From NCBI GenBank assembly GCA_018335695.1, contig JAGXRV010000094.1, positions 1-64,000 of the forward strand: a DNA stretch of 64,000 bases. The letters run 5' to 3'. This document shows positions 19,623-34,115 of the stretch, piece after piece. The notes beneath the pieces are model-generated. The model saw only the letters and a list, made by a program, of their open reading frames with translations. It was not told the origin of the DNA and searched no databases. How positions within the stretch are numbered: position 1 is the stretch's first letter; each line of letters opens with the position of its first letter. A program made the position numbers and the translations under genes. This stretch comes from Clostridium sp. Lineage in GTDB: Bacteria > Bacillota > Dethiobacteria > Dethiobacterales > Dethiobacteraceae.

Positions 19623-20540
19623 TTAATCAAATTTGGGGCGCGGCAGAAGTCCGGCTCTCTCCGTAATTTCAGGGACAATTTCTTCCCAGGCCACAGCCAT
19701 AATGTGTACCCCGGCCACTCCTTCCACAGTTTTGAGATGCTTAATCATCTCAACGCAGAGCTTAACCCCTTCCTCTTTCTTGTTTTCGGCAGCTTTAATC
19801 CTGTCAATGATTTCATCAGGGACAATCATGCCTGAAACATTATTTTTCATATAACGTGCGGCCCCCAAAGACTTGATGGGAATGACGCCGGCCATGATCG
19901 GTACTTTTTTGTGAATGCCAAGCTGACGCACTTTCTCCATCCAAAGCTCAAAGCGATCCATATCAAAAATCGCCTGCGTCTGAATAAAGTCGGCACCTGC
20001 TTCCACTTTTTTTGCCAAACGATAAGCGCGATACTCAAACGGATCGGCAAAGGGATTCTCCACCGCGCCAATAAAGAGATCGATTGGAGCCTCGAGTTTT
20101 TCGCCGCCAATAAAAAGCTGCTCGTCACGCATCCTCCGCAATGACTGAATCAAGTTCATGGAATCCAGATCATTAACATTCTTGGCGCTGGGTTCGTTGC
20201 CAAAGTTGGCATGGTCTCCCTGCAGACAGAGGACATTCTTCATGCCAAGCGCCACCGCGCCTAAGACATCAGACTGGATGGCGATACGATTGCGATCGCG
20301 GCAGGTAATCTGGATTACGGGATCCAGTCCTTCTTCAATCAGGATTCTGCCGCAGGCAATGCTTGATGTGCGGACGATAGCCGTCTGATTATCTGTTAAG
20401 TTAACGGCGTCCACACATTCTTTCAGTAAATGGGCGTGATGCTCAATCTTCTTCCGTTCGGCGCTTTTGGGAGGACCAAGTTCTCCGGTAACGGCAAACG
20501 CTCCGCTGGCAAACACTCTTTGCAAATTGCTCATACTCAT
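19623..20540 (-). CDS. metF: Methylenetetrahydrofolate reductase, catalytic subunit
   Basis: Reduces 5,10-methylene-THF to 5-methyl-THF, a central step of the methyl branch. It is about 305 residues from ATG 20540, which overlaps the metV stop (TAATG) with GGGAGG upstream; the longer frame lies inside metV. Family landmarks are 'AVTGELGPPKSAERKK', 'NLTDNQTAIVRTS', 'QGDHANFGNEPSAKNV' and 'GADFIQTQAIFDMD'. The short bacterial MetF form with adjacent metV is the acetogen arrangement. It is probably the last gene of the operon. Confidence 0.93.
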   Translation of the reverse strand: MSMSNLQRVFASGAFAVTGELGPPKSAERKKIEHHAHLLKECVDAVNLTDNQTAIVRTSSIACGRILIEEGLDPVIQITCRDRNRIAIQSDVLGAVALGMKNVLCLQGDHANFGNEPSAKNVNDLDSMNLIQSLRRMRDEQLFIGGEKLEAPIDLFIGAVENPFADPFEYRAYRLAKKVEAGADFIQTQAIFDMDRFELWMEKVRQLGIHKKVPIMAGVIPIKSLGAARYMKNNVSGMIVPDEIIDRIKAAENKKEEGVKLCVEMIKHLKTVEGVAGVHIMAVAWEEIVPEITERAGLLPRPKFD

Positions 20541-21208
20541 TACAGCTTCACATCCTCCCTGACCATTTTTCTCGGTCCACCGGAATGGGACGTTGCCCAA
20601 TCTTTAGGAGGTTTAACTTCCGAAAGAGCAGACAATTTATCAAACTTCATCATCCGTTCCACAATCAGATGCCAGCCGCATTCCGTTTCCTTACTGACCT
20701 CACACTTGCCATCCTGAGAACCGCCGCAAGGACCGTTAAGCATACTTTTGGAACAGCGCGCTATGGGGCAAATCCCCACCGTTTCTTCCAGAACACAGTT
20801 GCCGCAGCCCAGACAGTTTTCTACCCAAACTCCCTGCCGGAGGGGCAAGCCCATAAAAGTAGTGTTCACACCGGGGAGCGTCTGCACTTCGGCATAATGC
20901 ATGTTCATAGTCTGAATCCCCACCCCGCAGGCCAAAGATACGACTACGTCAGCTTCTTCCACCAGCTTGCGAACCGATTCCAGATATTCAAATTCACACT
21001 GGCGTTCAACCGTCTGGGTTTTCACAACGAGCGTTTTCCCGGCTTTTTTACGGGCGATTGCCATGGCGGCAGCAGTTTCTTTAACTTCCTTGTCGCCGCC
21101 CGCCATACAGACGGTGACACATTCGCCGCAACCAAGGACAAGCACCTTCTCAAATGGCGCTACTGCTTTAATAATTTCAGATAAAGGTTTACGTTCAGCC
21201 ACAATCAT
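20540..21208 (-). CDS. metV: MetV, zinc-binding subunit of methylene-THF reductase
   Basis: A 222-residue protein of the methylene-THF reductase C-terminal family. It has many cysteines: 'VLGCGECVTVC', 'ENCLGCGNCVLEETVGICPIARCSKSMLNGPCGG' and 'KCEVSKETECGW'. In Moorella, MetV partners MetF in a larger complex with Hdr-type proteins. It overlaps metF by one base, and its ATG overlaps the stop of the upstream flavoprotein gene (TAATG), so all three should be made together. Confidence 0.9.
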   Translation of the reverse strand: MIVAERKPLSEIIKAVAPFEKVLVLGCGECVTVCMAGGDKEVKETAAAMAIARKKAGKTLVVKTQTVERQCEFEYLESVRKLVEEADVVVSLACGVGIQTMNMHYAEVQTLPGVNTTFMGLPLRQGVWVENCLGCGNCVLEETVGICPIARCSKSMLNGPCGGSQDGKCEVSKETECGWHLIVERMMKFDKLSALSEVKPPKDWATSHSGGPRKMVREDVKL

Positions 21209-23301
21209 TATTCTGCACCCCCCTGACCATTGAGCAAGGAATCAACCTTAGTCAGAAACCTTTCAGCAACCGGAGCAAAGTCCCTAACTTCGGCGGGTGT
21301 AAGACTCAGATATTCAATGCGCTCTTTTTCCAGCCCAAGCTCTGCCAAGATTTCCTGAGCACGGCCGGCCCGTTTGGCTGCCCATTTGGCCGCATCAAGA
21401 TAAGTGCATTCTTCCTCCTGCTCGCAGCCGGCCAGAAAAACGCCTTCCGCACCAAGCGCAAAAGCCTCCAGAATGTTTTGCACCTCCACTTTCGCCACAC
21501 AAGGAACACGAACGACTGCCAAGTTTTGCGGTTTGCCGTTACTGAGATACTTTTGGAAATTACGCTCCGCAAAAGCGCCGTAGCTGCAGCAAAAGACAAC
21601 TGTGGCCGGATTGCCGTTGCTTTTGGCTTGTTTTAAGGCATCATCCAACTGCTCGAGCGCGTGCTCGACATAGTTATTCCGGAAGCGAATTGCCCGCGCA
21701 GGGCAAATGCCAACGCAAAGACCGCAAGCCTGACACTCTTCGTTGCGAATAGTGAAAATTCCGTCTTCATTAATCGTAGGCACGCCGTAAGGGCAGGTGC
21801 GCAAGCAGGTCAGGCAAACGGCACAAATTTGCTCGATACATTCCGCCCCGGCTGCGCAGTCCATACAGCGGCGGCTTTCACAAAGCGCTTGCCGCTCATC
21901 ATAGCCAATCTCCACATGTTCGTTATGCTGCGCACGAGTGTGTTCGTCAAGGAACGGCACAGCAAGCCGCGGGCTGCGCTTCACCTTTTCTGCCGTAGCG
22001 GCAGAAAGCATGCCAAGCACATCATAACGGTCAGCCAAATTAGCGTCAAAGGGTAATTTATCTAAGAAGTATTGTACGGCCAGAGCCGCTTTTTGACCGC
22101 TGGACATTGCTTTCACCGCAGAGCCTGGCCCGAAAACCAACTCACCGCAGGCAAACACACCGGGTCTTGTGGTCTGCATCGTACGCAGATCATATTTTAA
22201 AATACCTCGCTCAGTCAACTCAATCCCGGATTCTGTCAGGTAAGACAAGTTATCATTGCCTTGCCCAATAGCGAAAATTACAGTGTTAACCGGAATGATG
22301 TTTAAATTAGTACCAAAGCGGGGATTAAAACGTTTCTGTTCATCAAAGACGGAGAGGACTTCCTGCACTTCCATCCCTTCAATATTGCCGGCCTCGTCAA
22401 TCATAATCCGTTTCGGTCCCCAGGCAGGAAACATCTCCACTCCCTCTTCCAGAGCTTCAGCTATTTCCCACTTAAAGGCAGGCATAGTGCCGGCGCACTC
22501 AAGACATGCCAGTTTAACACTTTCGGCACCGCAGCGTATGGCTTGACGAGCCACGTCCATAGCTACGTTACCGCCACCGATGACAAGAATTTTTCTCCCC
22601 GGAGCAAATTTAAAGTTATGGTACTTGGCGCTATTTAAAAACGGCAGCGCCAAAAGCACATCTTTGGCATCGGAGCCGGGAATGGGAATGCTTCGGCTGG
22701 TGGGCAGACCCAATGCCAACACTACAGCTTGATACTCCGAGGCTAAGGCGTCGATGGAAATATCTTTGCCAAGTTCCACCCCTGTCTTAATTTCGACGCC
22801 CAAAGCAGCGACACGAGAGACGTCTTTGCGCATGGAATCCATGGGCAGCCGATAATGGGGAATAAAGTTAGTGATCGCACCGCCCGCTTCGGCGGAGCGC
22901 TCGAAAATGGTTACCGCCACACCCGCTTCCGCCAGTGCCCGGGCTGCGGCTAAACCGGCGGGACCGCCGCCTACTACGGCGACTCTTTCAGGACGGGTCA
23001 CTGCCGCTTTTTCAACTTCCGGCCAATTTCCGTTTTCCAGCGCAAATCGCTTAAGAGCGCGGATGGAAACAGCTTCATCCACATCTTTGCGCCGGCATTC
23101 CGTTTCGCACGGATGAGCACAAATCATGCCGCAGACGGACGCCAACGGATTAGGCGCTGTAATAGCCGCCACCGCCTTGTCATAGTCGCCGACAGAAATC
23201 TGTCGAACGTACTCCTGAACGTCCGTATGGACCGGGCAGCCACCCTGACAGGGCGGATACTGGGTCACAGCGGAAGACTCATTGTAAACAATTTTACTCA
23301 A
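21208..23301 (-). CDS. Fused FAD/NAD(P) oxidoreductase with ferredoxin and MvhD-like domains
   Basis: A 697-residue protein joining three parts. First is a GltD-like section: N-terminal Fe-S cysteines ('CQGGCPVHTDVQEYV', 'CGMICAHPCETECRR'), FAD site 'VAVVGGGPAGLAAARAL' and NAD(P) site 'KILVIGGGNVAMDVARQA'. Second are two 4Fe-4S motifs ('CAVCLTCLRTCPYGVP' and 'CQACGLCVGICP'). Third is a C-terminal MvhD/HdrA-delta-like domain ('VVFCCSYGAFAERN', 'GCEQEEECTY'). Coupled to metV-metF, it probably supplies electrons for methylene-THF reduction, taking the place of the HdrABC-MvhD partners known in Moorella. The start is TTG 23301, with AAGGGAGG 6-7 nt upstream; earlier codons overlap acsE. The electron donor is not known. 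Confidence 0.85.
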   Translation of the reverse strand: MSKIVYNESSAVTQYPPCQGGCPVHTDVQEYVRQISVGDYDKAVAAITAPNPLASVCGMICAHPCETECRRKDVDEAVSIRALKRFALENGNWPEVEKAAVTRPERVAVVGGGPAGLAAARALAEAGVAVTIFERSAEAGGAITNFIPHYRLPMDSMRKDVSRVAALGVEIKTGVELGKDISIDALASEYQAVVLALGLPTSRSIPIPGSDAKDVLLALPFLNSAKYHNFKFAPGRKILVIGGGNVAMDVARQAIRCGAESVKLACLECAGTMPAFKWEIAEALEEGVEMFPAWGPKRIMIDEAGNIEGMEVQEVLSVFDEQKRFNPRFGTNLNIIPVNTVIFAIGQGNDNLSYLTESGIELTERGILKYDLRTMQTTRPGVFACGELVFGPGSAVKAMSSGQKAALAVQYFLDKLPFDANLADRYDVLGMLSAATAEKVKRSPRLAVPFLDEHTRAQHNEHVEIGYDERQALCESRRCMDCAAGAECIEQICAVCLTCLRTCPYGVPTINEDGIFTIRNEECQACGLCVGICPARAIRFRNNYVEHALEQLDDALKQAKSNGNPATVVFCCSYGAFAERNFQKYLSNGKPQNLAVVRVPCVAKVEVQNILEAFALGAEGVFLAGCEQEEECTYLDAAKWAAKRAGRAQEILAELGLEKERIEYLSLTPAEVRDFAPVAERFLTKVDSLLNGQGGAE

Positions 23302-23332
23302 CAGATCTTCCTCCCTTACGGTAGTATTGCTT

Positions 23333-24151
<819 letters not shown>

Positions 24152-24173: not shown

Positions 24174-25154
24174 TTAATTTTCAAGCTCGGATTTTTGCAT
24201 CAGTTCAGCAATATTTTCTTTTACTAAAGCAGCAGCCTTCGGATGACGCATGACAAGAATATTCATTCCTCCTTGCAGGAGCGCTGTCGCTGTAGTGGTT
24301 TCCCAGAGAATGCCGCGCGTTTCCTGCTGTCCCCAGCCGGGAAAATCCTCAATGGAGGAGTTCGCTTCTTTGATTTTCCACACTTCGTAGCCTACGTTGC
24401 CAATCATCGGCATCGCCAGCATACTGTCGCCCTGCAATGCTCCGTTGCGGGCACGCTCCATGATCGAGTAGCCGTACTCCAAGCCATACCCGACTGCAGC
24501 AATGGTGGGGTCGATAACTATTCGGTTAGCCGGCAGATTCATTTCTGTAATCAGAATGTTGAGTTGCTTGCAGATATTGATGTCAATCGGAGATTGAGCA
24601 ATAATATTATGCTTATGAACCATGCAGGCAGCAGTCAGCGATTTATAATTTTCTTGTTCCGCAACCCCAATCAACAAATTCTCACCGGCAGCCGCTTCGG
24701 CTACAGCAGGTAACACTTTGTTATCCTTCTCCGCTTTGCCGCAGCCAAAAACGACCAGCGGACACTCTACGGCAGCCAACACATTCCGAACCACCTTGGC
24801 ACAATCCTCAGGAGAGGCATCTTTGCCGTCGGGATCGGCTCCTTCCAGATGGAGCACAATCAGGTCGGCGGCAAATTCGTCCACACATTTTTTAGCCCAA
24901 GCGGCAGGGTCTGCGAAAACGTCTCCGTAATAAGCGGAAAAACAGGCGTGCCAATCTGTGGGAGCCACATCTCTTACCTCTAAGGCTACCACCGGCCGGT
25001 TTGGAATTTCGCCCTCAAAATGCAGAAAAGGTAAGGCACTCTCACCGCCTACTGTAATGGTGTGCCCGCGGGTGCCACCCTGTGATTTTGTAGCTCCTAA
25101 GATAACTTCGCCAACCTTGCTCCTGTATTTTTCTTTTACTGCTCTGAAGGTCAT
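24174..25154 (-). CDS. acsD: Corrinoid/iron-sulfur protein, small subunit
   Basis: Small (beta) subunit of CFeSP, 326 residues, a barrel that helps hold the corrinoid. Landmarks include '[22 protein letters not shown]', '[15 protein letters not shown]' and '[20 protein letters not shown]'. It works with AcsC to carry the methyl group to AcsB. It is separated from acsC by the activator gene at 25179. GGGAGG lies 7 nt before the ATG. Confidence 0.95.
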
Positions 25155-25178: not shown

Positions 25179-27083
25179 TCATTTCTGTTTGTTTACCGAG
25201 GGGAAAAGAGTCATATCTGTATGCGGCAAAAAAAGTGCCGCCATAAATTCATCCATAAAATCGTTGCCGGCAGACAATTCCAGGTAAGTAATCTTTTTGC
25301 CCAGCTCTTGCGCTTCATGGAAAGCCTCTTGGGAAAGCAGAGCCAGCCGCGCGCCTTTCACTGAGGAGTTACCGATAAAGCTGTATTTTTCCGCCGGTAA
25401 ATCAGGAAGGAGACCGATCACAATAGCATCGCGGATGTTGAGGTAGTTGCCAAAGCCGCCTGCGATAAGCACTCTGTCTATACTCTCTTCGCCAAGCTGA
25501 ACTGCTTTCAACATGCTGCGAATCCCGGCATAGACGGCTCCTTTAGCCCGCAACAAATTCTTAACGTCATTTTCCGTGACAACAATATCCTTGCCGCATT
25601 CCGCCGCTTCGCTAAAGACGAGCACAAACTCCCAACCGTCATCTCCTTGCCGCATTCTCGGGGTAACAATATCTGCCTGCATCTTGCCCGCCCGGTCAAT
25701 GATCCCGGCTTCACGAAATTGAGCCAAACAGTCAATGAGACCTGAACCACAAATTCCCACCGCCTTTAACCCGCCTATCGTGGAAACAGTAACATCATAG
25801 CTGGTCCGGTCAATAACTACCCTTTCAATCGCTCCTTGCATCGCGCGCATCCCAAAGGTAATGCCTCCCCCTTCAAAAGCGGGACCGGCAGAACAGGCGG
25901 ATGATACTAACCAATCTCGATTGCCAAGCACCATTTCGCCGTTTGTCCCAATATCAATAAACAGGACAACTTCCTCAGCTTTAGCCATCTTAGTCACCAA
26001 AGTCCCGGCGACGATATCACCGCCTACATAAGAAGCGACCGAGGGGAAGCAAACAACGTAAGCACCGGGGCTAATCTGCAACCCTAATTCCTGCGCCCGA
26101 ACGGGCGGTGGAGCTGTGGCCAGAGGGATATAGGGTTCCAGCCGCAGATATTTTGGACTCAAACGCAAAAAGAGGTGGGTCATAGTGGTATTGCCGGCCA
26201 CCACCGCCAACTGCACATCATAACTATTTACCTGATGCTGAGCAAGCAACTCGACGACAAGCTGGTTGACGGTGTCAAGCACAGCTTTGTGCAGATCATC
26301 CAAGCCGTTTGGCTTTTCACTGGCGTGAATCATTCGGCTGATAACATCATCACCGAAGCGGGCTTGTTTGTTATAAGACCCTTTTTTTCCTATGCTTTGA
26401 CCTGTATCTAAATCGACAAGATATACTACTACAGTTGTAGTGCCAATATCGACCGCCAAGCCAAAGAATTTGCCGTCGTCATGGCCTGCTTCCACCTGCA
26501 CCACATCGGCACAACCGTTTAACTCTGCCACCGTCACCGTCACACGCCAGTCTTTGGCTCGCAGATTTTCCGGCAGTAAGCGTAAAACAGGCAGACTAAT
26601 ATTAACAGCCTGGCAATTTAACCGATTCCGTAACGCCAACTGCAAACGCGTCCAATCAGAGGCGTTTTCCGTCAAAGTAGGCTCAGGCAAACTTAGCTTA
26701 ATTTTGCGGCAGAGAGGATTTAAGGGATATTCCGCTGCCAAAGACTCTTCTTCTTCGAGTAAAATATTTTTCTTATCAAGGAGCACTTGATGCTGTTCGA
26801 GGCGGGAATCTCTTGGGATATCGACCACAATATTGCCGTCTGCCAACGTTTTGCAGGCAAGTACCAACCCGGCTTGTTTCGCTCTTTTAGAGATATTACC
26901 GGTACTCTCAGCTTTAACGCGGCCATCCTTAACTTTTACCAGACAGCGGCCGCAGGTGCCTTCACCACCGCAAGTAGTTTTTAGCTCTACACCGGCCAGT
27001 GAAGCCGCACGCAACAATGAGGTGCCGGGCTCTACGTGAGCCACTAAGTTGTCGGGAAAGAAAAAGACGGTTACTTTATCCAT
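25179..27083 (-). CDS. acsV: Reductive activator of CFeSP (RACo-like, AcsV)
   Basis: An ATP-dependent activator that reduces inactive Co(II) in the corrinoid protein. The roughly 634-residue protein has an N-terminal [2Fe-2S] ferredoxin domain (cysteines in 'TTCGGEGTCGRCLVKV' and a later Cys), a linker and a C-terminal ASKHA-type ATPase ('GLAVDIGTTTVVVYLVDLDTG', 'VVAGNTTMTHLFL', 'LFIDIGTNGEMVLG', 'IGGLKAVGICGSGLID'). It lies between acsC and acsD, the usual acetogen position. ATG 27083 with AAGGTGG upstream is preferred to GTG 27092. Confidence 0.9.
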   Translation of the reverse strand: MDKVTVFFFPDNLVAHVEPGTSLLRAASLAGVELKTTCGGEGTCGRCLVKVKDGRVKAESTGNISKRAKQAGLVLACKTLADGNIVVDIPRDSRLEQHQVLLDKKNILLEEEESLAAEYPLNPLCRKIKLSLPEPTLTENASDWTRLQLALRNRLNCQAVNISLPVLRLLPENLRAKDWRVTVTVAELNGCADVVQVEAGHDDGKFFGLAVDIGTTTVVVYLVDLDTGQSIGKKGSYNKQARFGDDVISRMIHASEKPNGLDDLHKAVLDTVNQLVVELLAQHQVNSYDVQLAVVAGNTTMTHLFLRLSPKYLRLEPYIPLATAPPPVRAQELGLQISPGAYVVCFPSVASYVGGDIVAGTLVTKMAKAEEVVLFIDIGTNGEMVLGNRDWLVSSACSAGPAFEGGGITFGMRAMQGAIERVVIDRTSYDVTVSTIGGLKAVGICGSGLIDCLAQFREAGIIDRAGKMQADIVTPRMRQGDDGWEFVLVFSEAAECGKDIVVTENDVKNLLRAKGAVYAGIRSMLKAVQLGEESIDRVLIAGGFGNYLNIRDAIVIGLLPDLPAEKYSFIGNSSVKGARLALLSQEAFHEAQELGKKITYLELSAGNDFMDEFMAALFLPHTDMTLFPSVNKQK

Positions 27084-27121
27084 TGGCGCCACCTTTTCTC
27101 CGGTCTCTCGGGGACAGGCTC

Positions 27122-28453
27122 CTATTTGGCAAATTTTTCTTTTGCAAACTTGCTGATTCCGGAAGCTTCACGCGGGCCGACTAAAACTTTCCAACCGCTT
27201 GCTTCTTCTGTGCTGCCTGAAAGCACCGCAACATAGCCGGGCAAGACAAGTGTCTTATGCTTAACTTTTGCCTCCATCTCATTTTCCTTTAAGGCCTTGT
27301 TGATAGAATCACCCGTCAGCTTACCGGCAGCCCAACCGGTAAGGACGGAAACACCGCCGGTATCAACCGGCAAAATATAAGCCGGTATTTTGCTTGCTTC
27401 CACTTCACTTTCAACAATATAGTAAGTGAGAGAAAAATTGGTAGTGATATAAACCGGAGAATCGGGAGTCACATCGCCTATTGCCACCGCTTTTGCTTCC
27501 ACCTGAATCGGTTTTTGCGGGTCGGTAAAAAGATTCTGCCGCCAAGAGAGCAGCGGTAACAGTTCCGCTTTTTCACCGGCACGCAAAACGATTAATCCGG
27601 CATACTTAGTAAGATAGACAACAGCCTGTGTTATTTCTGCCAGAGAGTCCTCTTTGGCAGTAAAGGTCATCGCAGGGTAAGCAAAGGGACGAAAACGTTT
27701 CCGTACGGCCAAACGCCGCATCTGAGTCAGGTCGGCCAACACTTGGGCTGTTTCCCGGTTGCCGCTATCCAAAACCAGCTCCTTATGACCCAGCTTAGTA
27801 ATTTTTTCTACCAATTCTGAGAGATCCGCCAATCCTTTGCCTTTGACAGCCAGCGGACAGGCAAGCTCTCGGGCAAGCGAGGTCATCTCCTCATAGTTCT
27901 CATTCGTAGCCGCGTAGAGAAGAGGTTTCTTGTCAGCCACGGCAGCAGCAGCCGCCGACATCACATCTGTGTTTTCGCAGATTAACAAGAAAGGTTTGCT
28001 TGTATTTGCAGCCACTGTTTGAGCGGCAGCTTTAAACTTGGCGGCATCCCCGGAAACACATTCTAAAGCTACCAGATCAGTAACATAATGCATCCCCACA
28101 CGGTCAAACTCCAGTTGATTAAAAGAAGCCAAACAGGCAGCCACATCTTCTGTGTCTTTTATGATTACCGCTATGGCGGTAGGATGATAGAATCGCTTGT
28201 CGTGACGAAACAACTCTGTTTCTTCACCCATTTCCACAGTATAATCACCGGTACCCACTTTAACCAGCTTTATCGGCGGTGCGGCAGCCGCCCCCAACAC
28301 TTCTTTCGCTTCTTCGGAAACGTGAGGACACTTATCGAGAGAAGTTTTGCCCGCAGACAGTGCCATGGCAAAAGCTAAGCAGGTGGGGAAGCCACAGTCA
28401 CCGGTGTTAGTTTTAGGCAGCTGTTTAAAAATCTCAAGACCGGTTAACCCCAT
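27122..28453 (-). CDS. acsC: Corrinoid/iron-sulfur protein, large subunit
   Basis: Large (gamma) subunit of CFeSP, 443 residues. The N-terminal 4Fe-4S motif 'CGFPTCLAFAMALSAGKTSLDKCP' receives electrons for cobalt reduction, and the remaining barrel and C-terminal corrinoid-binding domain fit AcsC. ATG 28453 is preferred to 28519 because AAAGGAG precedes it and the normal N-terminus 'MGLTGLEIFKQLPKTNCG'-like region starts there (this protein has 'NTGDCGFP'). It is separated from acsB by a terminator-like hairpin. Confidence 0.94.
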   Translation of the reverse strand: MGLTGLEIFKQLPKTNTGDCGFPTCLAFAMALSAGKTSLDKCPHVSEEAKEVLGAAAAPPIKLVKVGTGDYTVEMGEETELFRHDKRFYHPTAIAVIIKDTEDVAACLASFNQLEFDRVGMHYVTDLVALECVSGDAAKFKAAAQTVAANTSKPFLLICENTDVMSAAAAAVADKKPLLYAATNENYEEMTSLARELACPLAVKGKGLADLSELVEKITKLGHKELVLDSGNRETAQVLADLTQMRRLAVRKRFRPFAYPAMTFTAKEDSLAEITQAVVYLTKYAGLIVLRAGEKAELLPLLSWRQNLFTDPQKPIQVEAKAVAIGDVTPDSPVYITTNFSLTYYIVESEVEASKIPAYILPVDTGGVSVLTGWAAGKLTGDSINKALKENEMEAKVKHKTLVLPGYVAVLSGSTEEASGWKVLVGPREASGISKFAKEKFAK

Positions 28454-28525
28454 GATTCGGACTCCTTTCACTAACTTTGAGTTTAGCAAAAAATGACAAC
28501 CCAGACATTTCTTACGCAAAAAAAA

Positions 28526-28561: not shown

Positions 28562-30745
28562 TTACAGCAACGGATCCATGGTCAAAGCCGGATGCCCTTT
28601 TTCTTCCAGGAAAGGCAGAATTTCTTCCCCCGTAGTACCCACAGTTTCATCGGCTATCTTATCAACAAAGTCAGCGCCTAAGCCTTCTTCTTCGGCACGC
28701 TGGCGCAGGTCGTCCCCTAAGAAAGCTTTTAACTCTTTAGGCATCCAAACGATACGGGCCAAACCACCGTCAGCTTTGAGAAATTTTTTGGACAAGAGGT
28801 AGGAGCGCCCAATCCCCAAAAACCCGGGTGCCTGTACGCCGCCGCCCACGGAGCCTGCCAAGGTGGAGAAAGTCATGCCACAAGGGGTAGCTCCGGAATG
28901 CTCGCGAGTTGTTACCATCAATCCGTTTGCCTCAGGCACAATCGCAAGAATAGCCTCGAAGCAGCCGCACGATGTCATCGGCTGATCCATCAGCGTGTAG
29001 AGATTGACTTCTTCCACGCTTCGATTGGAGTTGTTATAAACATATTCGTTTACTGACTCCCACATCCCTTTTTCAGCATCAATCAGACCCTCTTTCTTAA
29101 TCGGACGGTTCGGACCGTTAGGGTCAATTTCATAGGAAGCTTTAGCATCAAGCCAACTTACGGCACCGCAAAGACCTACTCTTTCAGGAGCGACTACGCA
29201 AATATGATTCGGGGCAAAGGACTGGCAAAGAATACAGGAATAAAGCTCATCGACCGCCTCATCGGTAAGGCCGCGGAGACGCTTATCACGTTCTGCGTAG
29301 CGGGCGCGGGCAATTTTAATGTTCTCCTCCACCTGTTCCCTATCGGTAATCAAAGTAACTTCCACGCGGTCAACAATGGCGGGGAATTCATCTTTAAATT
29401 TAGCAATCAGTATTTCACCATAATGCTTCAGGCGGAAACCCTTAGCGATAGCATCTTTAGAAACACGCAACCAGCAAATATCACGCTGGGCAACGTGCCA
29501 TAGCCCTTCGCCATAGTTAATGAAATAGTGAATCCGTCGCTCCAGCACACCTTCAAAATCTACCTGCATCTTCCTGCCATAGATTTTAACCATGATCCCT
29601 AAGGGCAACCTGGCGCCTTCTTCAACTTCATCAAAATCGGGCCCGATTACAGTTATCTTACCGTCAACAATTTCATCTTCAGACACCATTTGCACAAGCT
29701 CAAAAGCAGTAGTCCTGCCGCCGCCCATTTCCACATACATATCGCCTTTGCGAATAGTCTCGCCCTCGAAGGCGGGACCGATAGTGATGGGCACAGGAAT
29801 TTCGAGGATTTTTAATTTAATACCCCGCAACTCCAGGCTGTATTTAACAAGCGTATCATAATCAGTGTGGGAAACGTACCAATCAGGAATTTCTTCTTCC
29901 AGTTTTGTATCGCAAATGACAGGAAACCCCAGGAAGATGGCAGCAAAGTGGGCTGCAACCTGCACATCATCAATTTCTCCCAAATGCAGCACAAAAGCCC
30001 GGACACGACGACGCTGATAGTCACGATGCTCTTCGCGCAAACCTGGGGCAATACCACCAAAAGACATCCCGGCACGCAAGGCATAATTCACAGCATGAAT
30101 AACTTGAGTAAAATTCCCCAGAGGAAAAGCAATATAATCCACGCCAAGCTTCATATTTTGTTCCAGCAACTGCTCGATGACTTCGTTAACCAAAAAAATC
30201 ATCATCCCTTTTGCCTGCAGTTCCTGTACTATTTTTGCGGCAGCTTCACTCGATTTAGCTTTACCAATAATAATGGCCTGTCCGGGAATAGTCCAATCAA
30301 CAAGTTGAATCCCGAATTTACGCAGAATTGGATCGGGCAAATAGCCGGTCCACGGGGCGACATGGGGCTGTGCTCCGTTAATATAGCGGAGCACCTCGAT
30401 AATTTCTGCGGCATAGGCGGTAGCCTCACCGGCAAGACGGGCATTTTCAAAAGTCAAACTTTCTTTAATCTGATGGCGCATCTTGTTGAGAATAGGCGGC
30501 AGTTCACCAAGTTTAGTCACTTTAACGCCGGAAAGCGAACTGATAACCGGCAGATAGTAAGCAGTATCCGGATAAGCAACCGGCTGATTCGGACCATACT
30601 TACGAATTGCCTTGCTCAACAGAATCTCAGCATAACCGGTAGCAATAATCGCACCGTTATACACACGCTGGAGCAGCTTTTTCGGGGCTTTCGACTGGTC
30701 AGTTATCGCCCCTGCGTAAATTTCATCAAAGGCTGTCATCGACAT
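28562..30745 (-). CDS. acsB: Acetyl-CoA synthase (CODH/ACS alpha subunit)
   Basis: Makes acetyl-CoA from CO, the CFeSP methyl group and CoA. The 727 residues match the full length of the Moorella protein. The A-cluster cysteines are present: 'CILC' then Cys 9 and 19 residues on ('HICVVAPERVGLCGAV'), and 'TSCGCFEAI' (Cys-Gly-Cys). The start ATG 30745 has GGGAGG upstream. No CO dehydrogenase catalytic gene (acsA) is in the window, although AcsA normally binds AcsB. Confidence 0.96.
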   Translation of the reverse strand: MSMTAFDEIYAGAITDQSKAPKKLLQRVYNGAIIATGYAEILLSKAIRKYGPNQPVAYPDTAYYLPVISSLSGVKVTKLGELPPILNKMRHQIKESLTFENARLAGEATAYAAEIIEVLRYINGAQPHVAPWTGYLPDPILRKFGIQLVDWTIPGQAIIIGKAKSSEAAAKIVQELQAKGMMIFLVNEVIEQLLEQNMKLGVDYIAFPLGNFTQVIHAVNYALRAGMSFGGIAPGLREEHRDYQRRRVRAFVLHLGEIDDVQVAAHFAAIFLGFPVICDTKLEEEIPDWYVSHTDYDTLVKYSLELRGIKLKILEIPVPITIGPAFEGETIRKGDMYVEMGGGRTTAFELVQMVSEDEIVDGKITVIGPDFDEVEEGARLPLGIMVKIYGRKMQVDFEGVLERRIHYFINYGEGLWHVAQRDICWLRVSKDAIAKGFRLKHYGEILIAKFKDEFPAIVDRVEVTLITDREQVEENIKIARARYAERDKRLRGLTDEAVDELYSCILCQSFAPNHICVVAPERVGLCGAVSWLDAKASYEIDPNGPNRPIKKEGLIDAEKGMWESVNEYVYNNSNRSVEEVNLYTLMDQPMTSCGCFEAILAIVPEANGLMVTTREHSGATPCGMTFSTLAGSVGGGVQAPGFLGIGRSYLLSKKFLKADGGLARIVWMPKELKAFLGDDLRQRAEEEGLGADFVDKIADETVGTTGEEILPFLEEKGHPALTMDPLL

Positions 30746-30777
30746 GCTCTTTCCTCCCAGACAAGCAATTTTTTTGC

Positions 30778-31539
30778 TTATTTTTCCTCCAAGATGCTAT
30801 CTACAAGAGCGTCTATCCCGGGCATCACACCGGAGCCTGCCAACAAACCGCTTTCTTCTTCAACAGCATTTTCCAAGACACCTTCATCAAAAGGAATCAT
30901 TCCTAAGAGTTCCTCTTCAGTAAACTGTGAGCGGACAAACTCTCTCTCTCGGTCATTTCTGACTTTATTGACTAAGACTTTAATCTTGCGGATCTTTAAT
31001 TCACTCGCCAGTTTCTGAACAACCTTGGCCGTAGCCACAGATACACGAGTCGGTTCGGTCACAATAATAATCAGGTCTACTCCGCGTGCCGTCCCCCGGG
31101 TAAGATGCTCAATCCCGGCGCTCATATCCAAAACTACCATGTCACTTTTGTCTAACAACAGGCTGGCCAGGACTGCGTACAGAAAGGAATTTTCTTTGCA
31201 GTAACAGGCTGTGCCGCCCTGCTTAATAGCACCCATGCGCAAAAACCTGATTTTATCCTGTTTAATCGAGAAGTCATCAATCAGGTCATCAACTTTGGGG
31301 TTGAGCGAAAAAAAGGCGCCGCCACCGCCTGCACGCTCATCAATTAATGCTTTCATTTCAATAATCGGACGCAGCGAAGCCAGCTCATGAGCAGGCAAGC
31401 CCAAAGTGGCGCCTAAGCTCACATCGGGATCAGCGTCTACTGCATAAACATTAAAGCCACGCTTGGCAAAAGCACGAATCAAATTAGCGGAAAAAGTAGT
31501 TTTACCCACACCACCCTTGCCGGAAACAGCTATCTTCAT
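30778..31539 (-). CDS. cooC: CooC/AcsF-type nickel-insertion ATPase
   Basis: A 253-residue MinD-type ATPase with deviant Walker A 'MKIAVSGKGGVGKTTFSANL', a switch region 'VVLDMSAGIEHLTRG' and a Walker B-like Asp. CooC/AcsF proteins help put nickel into CO dehydrogenase or acetyl-CoA synthase. It directly precedes acsB, which supports a maturation role. It lies about 120 nt after the clpC stop, where I see an AT-rich stretch but no convincing promoter. The start ATG 31539 has GGTAGGTG upstream. Confidence 0.88.
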   Translation of the reverse strand: MKIAVSGKGGVGKTTFSANLIRAFAKRGFNVYAVDADPDVSLGATLGLPAHELASLRPIIEMKALIDERAGGGGAFFSLNPKVDDLIDDFSIKQDKIRFLRMGAIKQGGTACYCKENSFLYAVLASLLLDKSDMVVLDMSAGIEHLTRGTARGVDLIIIVTEPTRVSVATAKVVQKLASELKIRKIKVLVNKVRNDREREFVRSQFTEEELLGMIPFDEGVLENAVEEESGLLAGSGVMPGIDALVDSILEEK

Positions 31540-31658
31540 AAAAGCACCTACCCAAAAGGAAGATCTAAAAATAATTTAAAATAAAACAACACTTGCTCTT
31601 ACTTCAACGAAGTCGATGAAAATCCTTTTTTTCAGAAAAATTAGTTTAGTAAAAAAAC

Positions 31659-34115
31659 TTACCCCTGCTTTTCGACAGCCGGTTCATCCTTTGAAAAAAC
31701 CAACCGTCCATCAGCCGCATCCACCAAAATGATGTCATTTTGAGTATATTCGCCGCGCAAAATTTTCTCCGAAACTTCGTCCTCAATGCGCTTTTGCAGC
31801 ACTCTGCGCAGCGGCCTGGCACCAAATGTGGGGTCATATCCTTCTTTCGCCAGCAATGCCTTAGCAGCCTCGCTGACTTTTAGCACCATTTTATAATCAC
31901 TCAGACGGTTAGCTAATTCAAGCAGCATCAGCTCGACAATTTCCGTTAAATGTTCTTCTGCAAGTGGGTGGAAAACGATTACTTCATCAATCCGGTTTAA
32001 AAATTCCGGACGGAAAGAGCGCTTCAGCTCATCCATCACCTTGCTCTTCATATCCTCATAGGTCTTTTCCCGATCTCCGGTCCTAAAACCCATAGTGGCC
32101 TGTTTTTTCAATTCGGCGGCGCCCACGTTTGATGTCATGATAATTACGGCGTTGCGGAAATCGACTGTGCGTCCCTTGCTATCTGTAAGACGTCCGTCTT
32201 CCAGTACCTGCAGCAAGATATTAAACACTTCCGAATGCGCTTTTTCAATTTCATCAAAAAGGATAACAGAATAAGGCTTGCGCCGCACTTTCTCCGTCAG
32301 CTGCCCTCCCTCATCATAACCTACATAACCCGGAGGCGCGCCCACCAAACGAGCTGTAGTATGCTTTTCCATATACTCAGACATATCCAAACTAGTCATA
32401 GCATCTTCATCGCCAAAGAGACTCTCCGCTAAAGCCCGGGCTAATTCCGTTTTGCCCACACCGGTAGGACCAAGGAAGATAAACGAACCAATCGGCCGCT
32501 TAGGACTCTTAAGACCGGCGCGTGCCCTGCGAATAGCTCGCGACACAGCTTTTACCGCTTCGTCCTGACCTATTACCCGCTGATGAAGAATAGACTCCAT
32601 ATTTAAAAGTCTTTCCGTTTCTTCTTCCTCGAGGCGTTTAACCGGTATGCCAGTCCAAGCCGCCACAATTTGAGCAATATCTTCAGAGCCTACAGAGCGG
32701 GTGTCGGATGATTTGCGCTGTTCCCATGATCTCTTCAAATTCTGCAGTTCTTCCTTCATCAGATGTTCTTTGTCCCGCAGCTTGGCTGCCAGCTCAAACT
32801 CCTGACTGCGAACAGCCGCTTCCTTTTCATTACGCAGCGTTTCCACCTTAGACTCAAGCTCTTTTAAATCCGGCGGAGCGGTATAAGCCTTCATCCTAAC
32901 CCGGGAGGCTGCCTCATCGATTAAATCAATAGCTTTATCAGGCAAAAATCGATCGCTAATATAGCGATCCGCCAAAGTAACAGCCGCATTTAACGCTTCA
33001 TCCGTTATCTTTACCCGATGGTGAGCTTCGTAACGGTCACGAAGTCCTTTGAGAATTTCCAGCGACTCTTCTTTTGTCGGCTCGCCCACCGTTATCGGTT
33101 GAAAACGGCGTTCCAACGCCGGGTCACGCTCGATATGCTTTCTGTACTCATCCAAAGTGGTTGCACCGATAGCCTGCATTTCGCCGCGGGCCAGCGCCGG
33201 CTTTAAAATATTGGAAGCATCGATAGCGCCTTCGGCTGCGCCGGCGCCGATTAAAGTATGAAGTTCATCAATAAATACGATCACATTGCCGGCGGAGCGC
33301 AACTCTTCCATCAGCTTACGCAACCGCTCCTCAAATTCGCCCCGGTATTTCGTGCCGGCCACCACCGCAGCCAATTCAAGCGTAACCACCCGTTTATCCT
33401 TAAGTGTTTCCGGAACACGCACTTCAATAATCCGTTGCGCCAACCCTTCGGCAATAGCAGTTTTTCCCACGCCTGGCTCCCCAATTAAGCAAGGATTGTT
33501 CTTTGTCCGCCGCGATAAAACCTGAATAACGCGTTCAATTTCAGTCTCCCGCCCAACAACAGGATCAAGTTTTCCTTCTTTAGCCAATTTGGTTAAATCC
33601 CGCCCAAACTGATCTACTGTAGGCGTAGCAGAAGTGCGGCCGGCAGATTCTTCTTGCAGCCGCGTATCGTCACTGCTGCCAAGCAAAGCAAGCACAGATT
33701 TGCGGCCCCGGGTCAGGTCAATACCCAAATTTGTTAACACCTGCGCCGCAATTCCTTCCCCTTCACGAATCAGACCAAGCAGCAGATGTTCCGTACCGAC
33801 ATAGTTATGCCCTAAGCTTTGCCCTTCTTCAATAGCCAATTCTATCACTTTTTTGGCGCGCGGAGTATAGTTTACTCCCTGCGGACCGGAACGCTGGTCA
33901 CCTTTGCCAATCAATTTCTCAATTTCGGAACGGACGCTATCAAGCTCCACCCCAAGCGACAGCAGAACTTTAGCCGCAATTCCTTCCCCTTCCCTTACTA
34001 AGCCAAGCAGAATATGCTCTGTGCCTACAAAACTATGGTGAAACCGCTTAGCCTCGTCCTGAGCAAGCACCAAAACTTTTTGCGCTCTTTCGGTAAACCG
34101 GCCAAACATAAACAT
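31659..34115 (-). CDS. clpC: ClpC, AAA+ unfoldase of the ClpCP protease
   Basis: An 818-residue class 1 Clp/Hsp100 protein. There are two N-terminal Clp_N repeats (residues about 5-145), a first AAA+ module with '[13 protein letters not shown]', a UVR-like middle segment ('[18 protein letters not shown]') and a second AAA+ module with '[16 protein letters not shown]'. It unfolds proteins for ClpP; in Gram-positives it takes arginine-phosphorylated substrates made by McsB, encoded just upstream. Start ATG 34115 follows AGGAGG overlapping the mcsB stop. It is the last gene of the CtsR operon. Confidence 0.96.

Follow-up and report, generated by a model that had tools for sequence, protein, structure and literature searches.

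How the methylene-tetrahydrofolate (methylene-THF) reductase MetVF, which forms the acetate methyl group from CO2, receives its electrons in acetogens is a long-standing question that bears on the ATP yield of the pathway, and it is posed by the end of an acs operon in the metagenome-assembled genome of an uncultured, anaerobic Dethiobacteria-type member of the Bacillota (GCA_018335695.1). The window analysed here, to which all positions refer, is a stretch of 64,000 nucleotides from contig JAGXRV010000094.1. On its minus strand, positions 19623-23301 hold metF, metV and the gene of a fused flavoprotein, which together form the terminal part of the acs operon. Judging from the genes, most likely one fused protein feeds MetVF from NADH and thereby replaces the four-subunit complex of Moorella. 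In the literature searched, we found no description of a GltD-ferredoxin-MvhD fusion associated with MetVF.

The fusion gene (21208-23301, minus strand, as are all genes of this operon) starts with TTG at 23301, eight bases downstream of a GGGAGG Shine-Dalgarno sequence (23310-23315), and encodes 697 amino acids. Pfam assigned four clearly significant domains. The N-terminal Fe-S domain of GltD (Fer4_20, residues 15-90, 23032-23259) carries cysteines 18, 22, 57, 61, 65 and 69 and Lys84 in the alignments, and is followed by a single FAD/NAD(P) domain (Pyr_redox_2, residues 106-402, 22096-22986) with the motif CLE at residues 266-268, where NADPH-type proteins have YRR. A C-terminal 2[4Fe-4S] ferredoxin (Fer4 dicluster, residues about 490-540, 21682-21834) has invariant cysteines at 493, 496, 499, 503, 523, 526, 529 and 533, and the MvhD/FlpD domain (residues 568-689, 21235-21600; FlpD E=2e-26) has cysteines 572, 601, 626 and 632 in common with solved MvhD proteins. 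AlphaFold, run with 54 aligned relatives, gave a single confident chain, with a predicted local distance difference test (pLDDT) score of 91.2 and a predicted template modelling (pTM) score of 0.88, and in the PDB its fold is closest to those chains of NfnABC and StnABC that contain GltD. The family NF040770 (HdrA2/HdrA-MvhD type) matches residues 484-689, and the ferredoxin domain resembles the ferredoxin at the C-terminus of Moorella-type HdrA. The initial annotation, made from the sequence of the stretch, had described a 697-residue fusion of GltD-like FAD/NAD(P) sites, ferredoxin and MvhD, which both the Pfam domains and the single modelled chain confirm. Its count of two 4Fe-4S motifs is too low, as six more conserved cysteines lie in the N-terminal GltD module.

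The fusion gene is closely tied to the two genes that follow it, metV (20540-21208, 222 amino acids; PF12225 E=2e-34) and metF (19623-20540, 305 amino acids from the ATG at 20540, in a reading frame open back to 20600; methylene-THF reductase (MTHFR) family PF02219 E=2e-43). Both TAATG overlaps that the initial annotation had reported are present, at bases 21210-21206 between fusion and metV and at bases 20542-20538 between metV and metF. Fusion, metV and metF are contiguous in all 18 loci with an intact fusion gene in the window's family (f1), and in each of these the fusion and metV overlap at stop and start codons or directly abut, so that their coupling is more than chance. For the relatives, taxonomy was deduced from the named records that their fusion resembles (L021-L037, among them Dethiobacter sp., GPS1B09 and HKB214). 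In six f1 loci (L025, L027-L031), acsB, acsC, acsD and the activator gene are gone from the site, and fusion-metV-metF is kept 3' of clpC, even in L027, where acsE is missing as well. Elsewhere in the genomes of such relatives there is an acsB that has diverged further (about 47-50%), and thus the acs genes were lost from the locus rather than the pathway being lost. One f1 genome (G018) has neither the fusion nor MetV. An apparent counter-example, G004, was set aside: its fusion reading frame (L035:2189-4309) is unrelated in sequence beyond about residue 594, and the contig is probably chimeric.

The linkage recurs in a second phylum. In Dehalococcoidia (Chloroflexota), the fusion adjoins metV and/or metF in six loci (L039, L109, L135, L138, L139 and L141). 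A separate GltD-ferredoxin-MvhD clade with the NADPH-type YRR motif is found in L142-L146, and in L143-L146 these proteins, with equal domain order, are followed by metV-metF. In a tree of the GltD module (65 rows), the CLE-type fusions group together without exception (100/99), as sister to the GltD domain of HdrA proteins of about 1490 amino acids (100/99); the YRR-type clade of L142-L146 lies outside. The genes for this long HdrA are located in hdrC-hdrB-hdrA-mvhD-metV-metF clusters, and one of them (L101) encodes 1487 amino acids, the size that PMC9430772 implies for HdrA of M. thermoacetica. The f1 fusions form one clade; simple vertical relocation from the sister family f2 was rejected, as a tree that forces f1 and the f2 copy into one clade fails the approximately unbiased test (p=0.009), although the stem of f1 is long. 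Within the CLE clade, the metVF-adjacent state needs three changes, which fits an ancestral linkage followed by three losses, although the count alone cannot separate gain from loss.

The motif at the second Rossmann fold suggests the electron donor. CLE occurs there in the window protein, in all members of the CLE clade (including every f1 row) and in most Moorella-type HdrA proteins, whereas StnC, NfnABC and a NuoF-GltD protein have YRR. In the GltD/DPD family, an arginine of the YRR motif reads the 2'-phosphate of NADPH; with CLE in place of YRR, NADPH is disfavoured as the donor. In the Moorella complex, NADH is oxidized at HdrA (PMC8760232), and the NADH:benzyl viologen activity of Moorella HdrA is 190 U/mg, compared with 0.5 U/mg for the S. 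ovata HdrA, which lacks a GltD domain (PMC9430772). Because the fusion shares CLE, and not YRR, with the GltD domain of an HdrA that oxidizes NADH, NADH is its predicted donor.

The position of MvhD indicates how electrons may enter MetV. Where an Hdr-type or fusion-type input protein adjoins metVF, MvhD, fused or free, is nearly always encoded directly 5' of metV (f1, f4, the Moorella type, L096/L097, L157, L039, L135, L141 and L143-L146); the exceptions are L138 and L139, in which the fusion lies on the other side of metF. This arrangement makes MvhD the probable docking partner of MetV. In S. ovata, pulldowns found contacts between MvhD and MetF and between MetV and HdrA, and left an MvhD-MetV contact undetermined (PMC9430772). 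The MetV sequence has no matching entry in the PDB. Two of these loci encode other ferredoxin-MvhD proteins beside metV. In L039 (3023-4174), a 383-amino-acid protein of two tandem ferredoxin-MvhD units overlaps the start of a metV gene, and in L157 (5933-9164; G007), a 543-amino-acid protein ending in ferredoxin-MvhD, with a putatively HdrA-like N-terminal part, is encoded directly 5' of a second metV-metF.

Taken together, we consider it probable, though well short of certain, that the fusion, MetV and MetF form a compact, non-bifurcating NADH:methylene-THF reductase complex, because the trio is kept at all intact f1 loci, also where acsB, acsC and acsD have left the locus, recurs in Dehalococcoidia, and has a GltD module that is sister to the HdrA domain. 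Complex formation, the donor, the order of transfer and the lack of bifurcation are predictions from the domains, motifs, gene coupling, conservation and phylogeny observed here. NADH would donate its hydride to the GltD-bound FAD, from which electrons would leave one at a time. Their path would run over the FAD-proximal [4Fe-4S] cluster, of the lysine type, then over the ferredoxin clusters of the C-terminal part, and would reach the [2Fe-2S] site in MvhD. MetV, with its [4Fe-4S] clusters, would come next, and MetF would use the electrons at its flavin to reduce methylene-THF to methyl-THF for AcsE. Such a complex would be equivalent to the Moorella type minus HdrBC and the thioredoxin reductase-like (TrxR-like) parts of HdrA, with MvhD joined to the NADH-oxidizing module. 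The domain fusion and its coupling to metVF thus lend support to the compact electron route that had been proposed for this locus.

Several observations weigh against this reading, and some of them would fit a fusion that serves as a general NADH-linked carrier (e.g., NADH:ferredoxin), with its gene merely riding in the operon and MetVF using reduced ferredoxin. In other families of the class, full-length homologues (44-49% identical) are orphans among housekeeping genes, and acsE is followed directly by metV-metF in those families. Four genomes (G041, G042, G044 and G057) have the homologue and no close MetV, so other partners or functions are possible for this protein. In several acetogens, MetVF by itself can use reduced ferredoxin as donor, and in the partly purified Moorella complex NADH was not coupled to methylene-THF (PMC8760232). 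In addition, another contig of the window's own genome (C73; L151:4431-8095) carries a separate hdrB-hdrC-hdrA-mvhD cluster with Flx-like genes, which could serve MetVF in trans. Against a carrier that only rides in the operon stand the constant contiguity with coupled junctions in f1, the retention of the trio when the acs genes leave, the recurrence of the linkage in a second phylum, and the rule that MvhD stands beside metV. Moreover, among class genomes outside f1, a close MetV is present in 29 of the 33 with a homologue compared with three of the seven without (Fisher p=0.02, a test that ignores relatedness), and those three belong to f4, which has its own HdrA-MvhD. Of 398 evenly sampled Bacillota genomes, 16 carry the full-length fusion and all of these have MetV, compared with 146 of the 398 overall; adjacency to metVF among the 16 is confined to the f1 ones. 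We therefore regard the general carrier as unlikely.

Electron bifurcation or confurcation by the fusion seems more doubtful still. Here, the one GltD FAD would split the electrons of NADH between MetVF and ferredoxin, or do the reverse in acetate oxidation, using the Fe-S branches at either end of the protein as two paths. The best folds are those of the bifurcating NfnABC/Stn complexes, the FAD that bifurcates in Nfn sits in the GltD-type subunit NfnB, next to an FAD-proximal cluster with a Glu ligand (PMC10482914), and the Moorella complex has been proposed to bifurcate (PMC8760232). However, bifurcating HdrA is marked by TrxR-like domains with an E/K signature, and Moorella HdrA has both such domains (PMC9430772), whereas Pfam detected in the fusion the Pyr_redox_2 domain of GltD alone and no TrxR-like flavin domain, and among the operon proteins neither HdrB, HdrC nor an NfnA-like partner. 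HdrA-type bifurcation can be rejected because of the missing flavin domain. Bifurcation of the NfnB type is weakened by Lys84, which aligns, with no preceding gap, with K170 of StnC and is a lysine in all 54 aligned relatives, where NfnB (4ylf_B) has the Glu. In StnC, the GltD FAD is non-bifurcating and Lys170 can be a ligand of the FAD-proximal cluster (PMC10482914). The suggestion in the initial annotation that the protein could allow electron bifurcation is thus not supported, given the missing HdrA flavin domains and the Stn-type lysine. Its view of one polypeptide doing the work of HdrABC likewise does not hold for a fusion that lacks HdrB, HdrC and both TrxR-like domains. It had also contrasted the fusion with separate HdrABC and MvhD partners in Moorella; MvhD is indeed separate there, but GltD is not foreign to that system, being already part of the 162.8-kDa HdrA (PMC9430772).

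It is very improbable that the trio works mainly in the oxidative direction, from methyl-THF to methylene-THF with reduction of NAD+ in an acetate- or methyl-oxidizing organism. In favour of this, relatives in the class include syntrophic acetate oxidizers such as Ca. Contubernalis alkaliaceticus (PMC10608574), but NAD+ reduction by methyl-THF would be uphill (about -200 vs. -320 mV; PMC6295475), no coupling module is present, and direction is unreadable from sequence.

The rest of the operon, in order of transcription, comprises genes for a cooC-like ATPase (30778-31539; Pfam), acetyl-CoA synthase (acsB, 28562-30745), the large subunit of the corrinoid Fe-S protein (acsC, 27122-28519), the corrinoid activation/regeneration protein AcsV/RACo (25179-27092; Pfam), which thus lies between acsC and acsD, the small subunit of the corrinoid Fe-S protein (acsD, 24174-25154) and the methyl-THF:corrinoid methyltransferase (acsE, 23333-24127, 31 bases 5' of the fusion gene), followed by fusion, metV and metF. 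In the window's genus, the operon has no carbon monoxide dehydrogenase (CODH) gene acsA (30745-31659), which stands beside acsB in sister genera (L026, L158). Other CODH-like genes are present elsewhere in the window's genome, together with an apparent archaeal-type CdhA/CdhC pair (G000:C13).

Second metVF systems were observed in other genomes. In family f5 (L150:3398-11188), a large FdhA-like protein, a NuoE-like protein, a 1021-amino-acid NuoF-GltD-type fusion with YRR, MetV and MetF are encoded in a row, possibly a formate dehydrogenase-linked second MetVF system. Second metVF pairs adjoin [NiFe]-hydrogenase genes in L092 (G022) and L153 (G015), an arrangement that has been described for Ca. 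Contubernalis (PMC10608574).

Among known methylene-THF reductases, the adjacent genes for MetF (MTHFR) and MetV (PF12225) make the trio MetVF-type. No RnfC domain, the marker of type III (RnfC2), was found among the operon proteins, and since two Hdr-type features (TrxR-like HdrA and HdrBC) and the RnfC2 gene are lacking, we file the trio, on its gene content, as a variant of the MetVF kind belonging to neither type III nor type IV. It resembles the type IV HdrCBA-MvhD-MetVF of Moorella thermoacetica in having MvhD before metVF, a CLE-type GltD module and a C-terminal ferredoxin (both within HdrA there), and in its place after acsE. It differs in lacking HdrB, HdrC and the TrxR-like flavin domains, and in carrying GltD, ferredoxin and MvhD on one chain. 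With three polypeptides, it is far simpler than the six-subunit Moorella enzyme, and a comparison of the two would show what HdrBC and TrxR add. The type III RnfC2-MetVF of Acetobacterium woodii likewise has three genes and one nucleotide-oxidizing partner and is NADH-dependent and non-bifurcating (PMC8760232), which we also propose for the trio, but the input subunit of the trio is of the GltD-MvhD type rather than the RnfC fold. The trio would thus operate in the manner of type III, with a single NADH-oxidizing partner, but with components of type IV. The GltD subunits of StnC and NfnABC are the best fold matches, and StnC shares the lysine close to the FAD-proximal cluster; these proteins, by contrast, have YRR, a NuoG-like tail, a StnAB partner and no MvhD domain. 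HdrA2/HdrA-MvhD fusions likewise end in a ferredoxin with MvhD fused behind it, but have the HdrA TrxR-like flavin domain where the window protein has GltD. Within the same class, f4, one genome of which resembles Ca. Contubernalis alkaliaceticus, encodes acsE-HdrA-MvhD-metV-metF, without the fusion, in the same operon position, but its HdrA is short, its MvhD is separate and it has no GltD module. The chances seem to us evenly balanced that GltD-ferredoxin-MvhD with MetVF constitutes a separate "type V" MTHFR, NADH-driven and non-bifurcating, present in at least two phyla beside the parallel YRR clade of Dehalococcoidia, in which the NAD(P)H module would be a cartridge swappable via MvhD.

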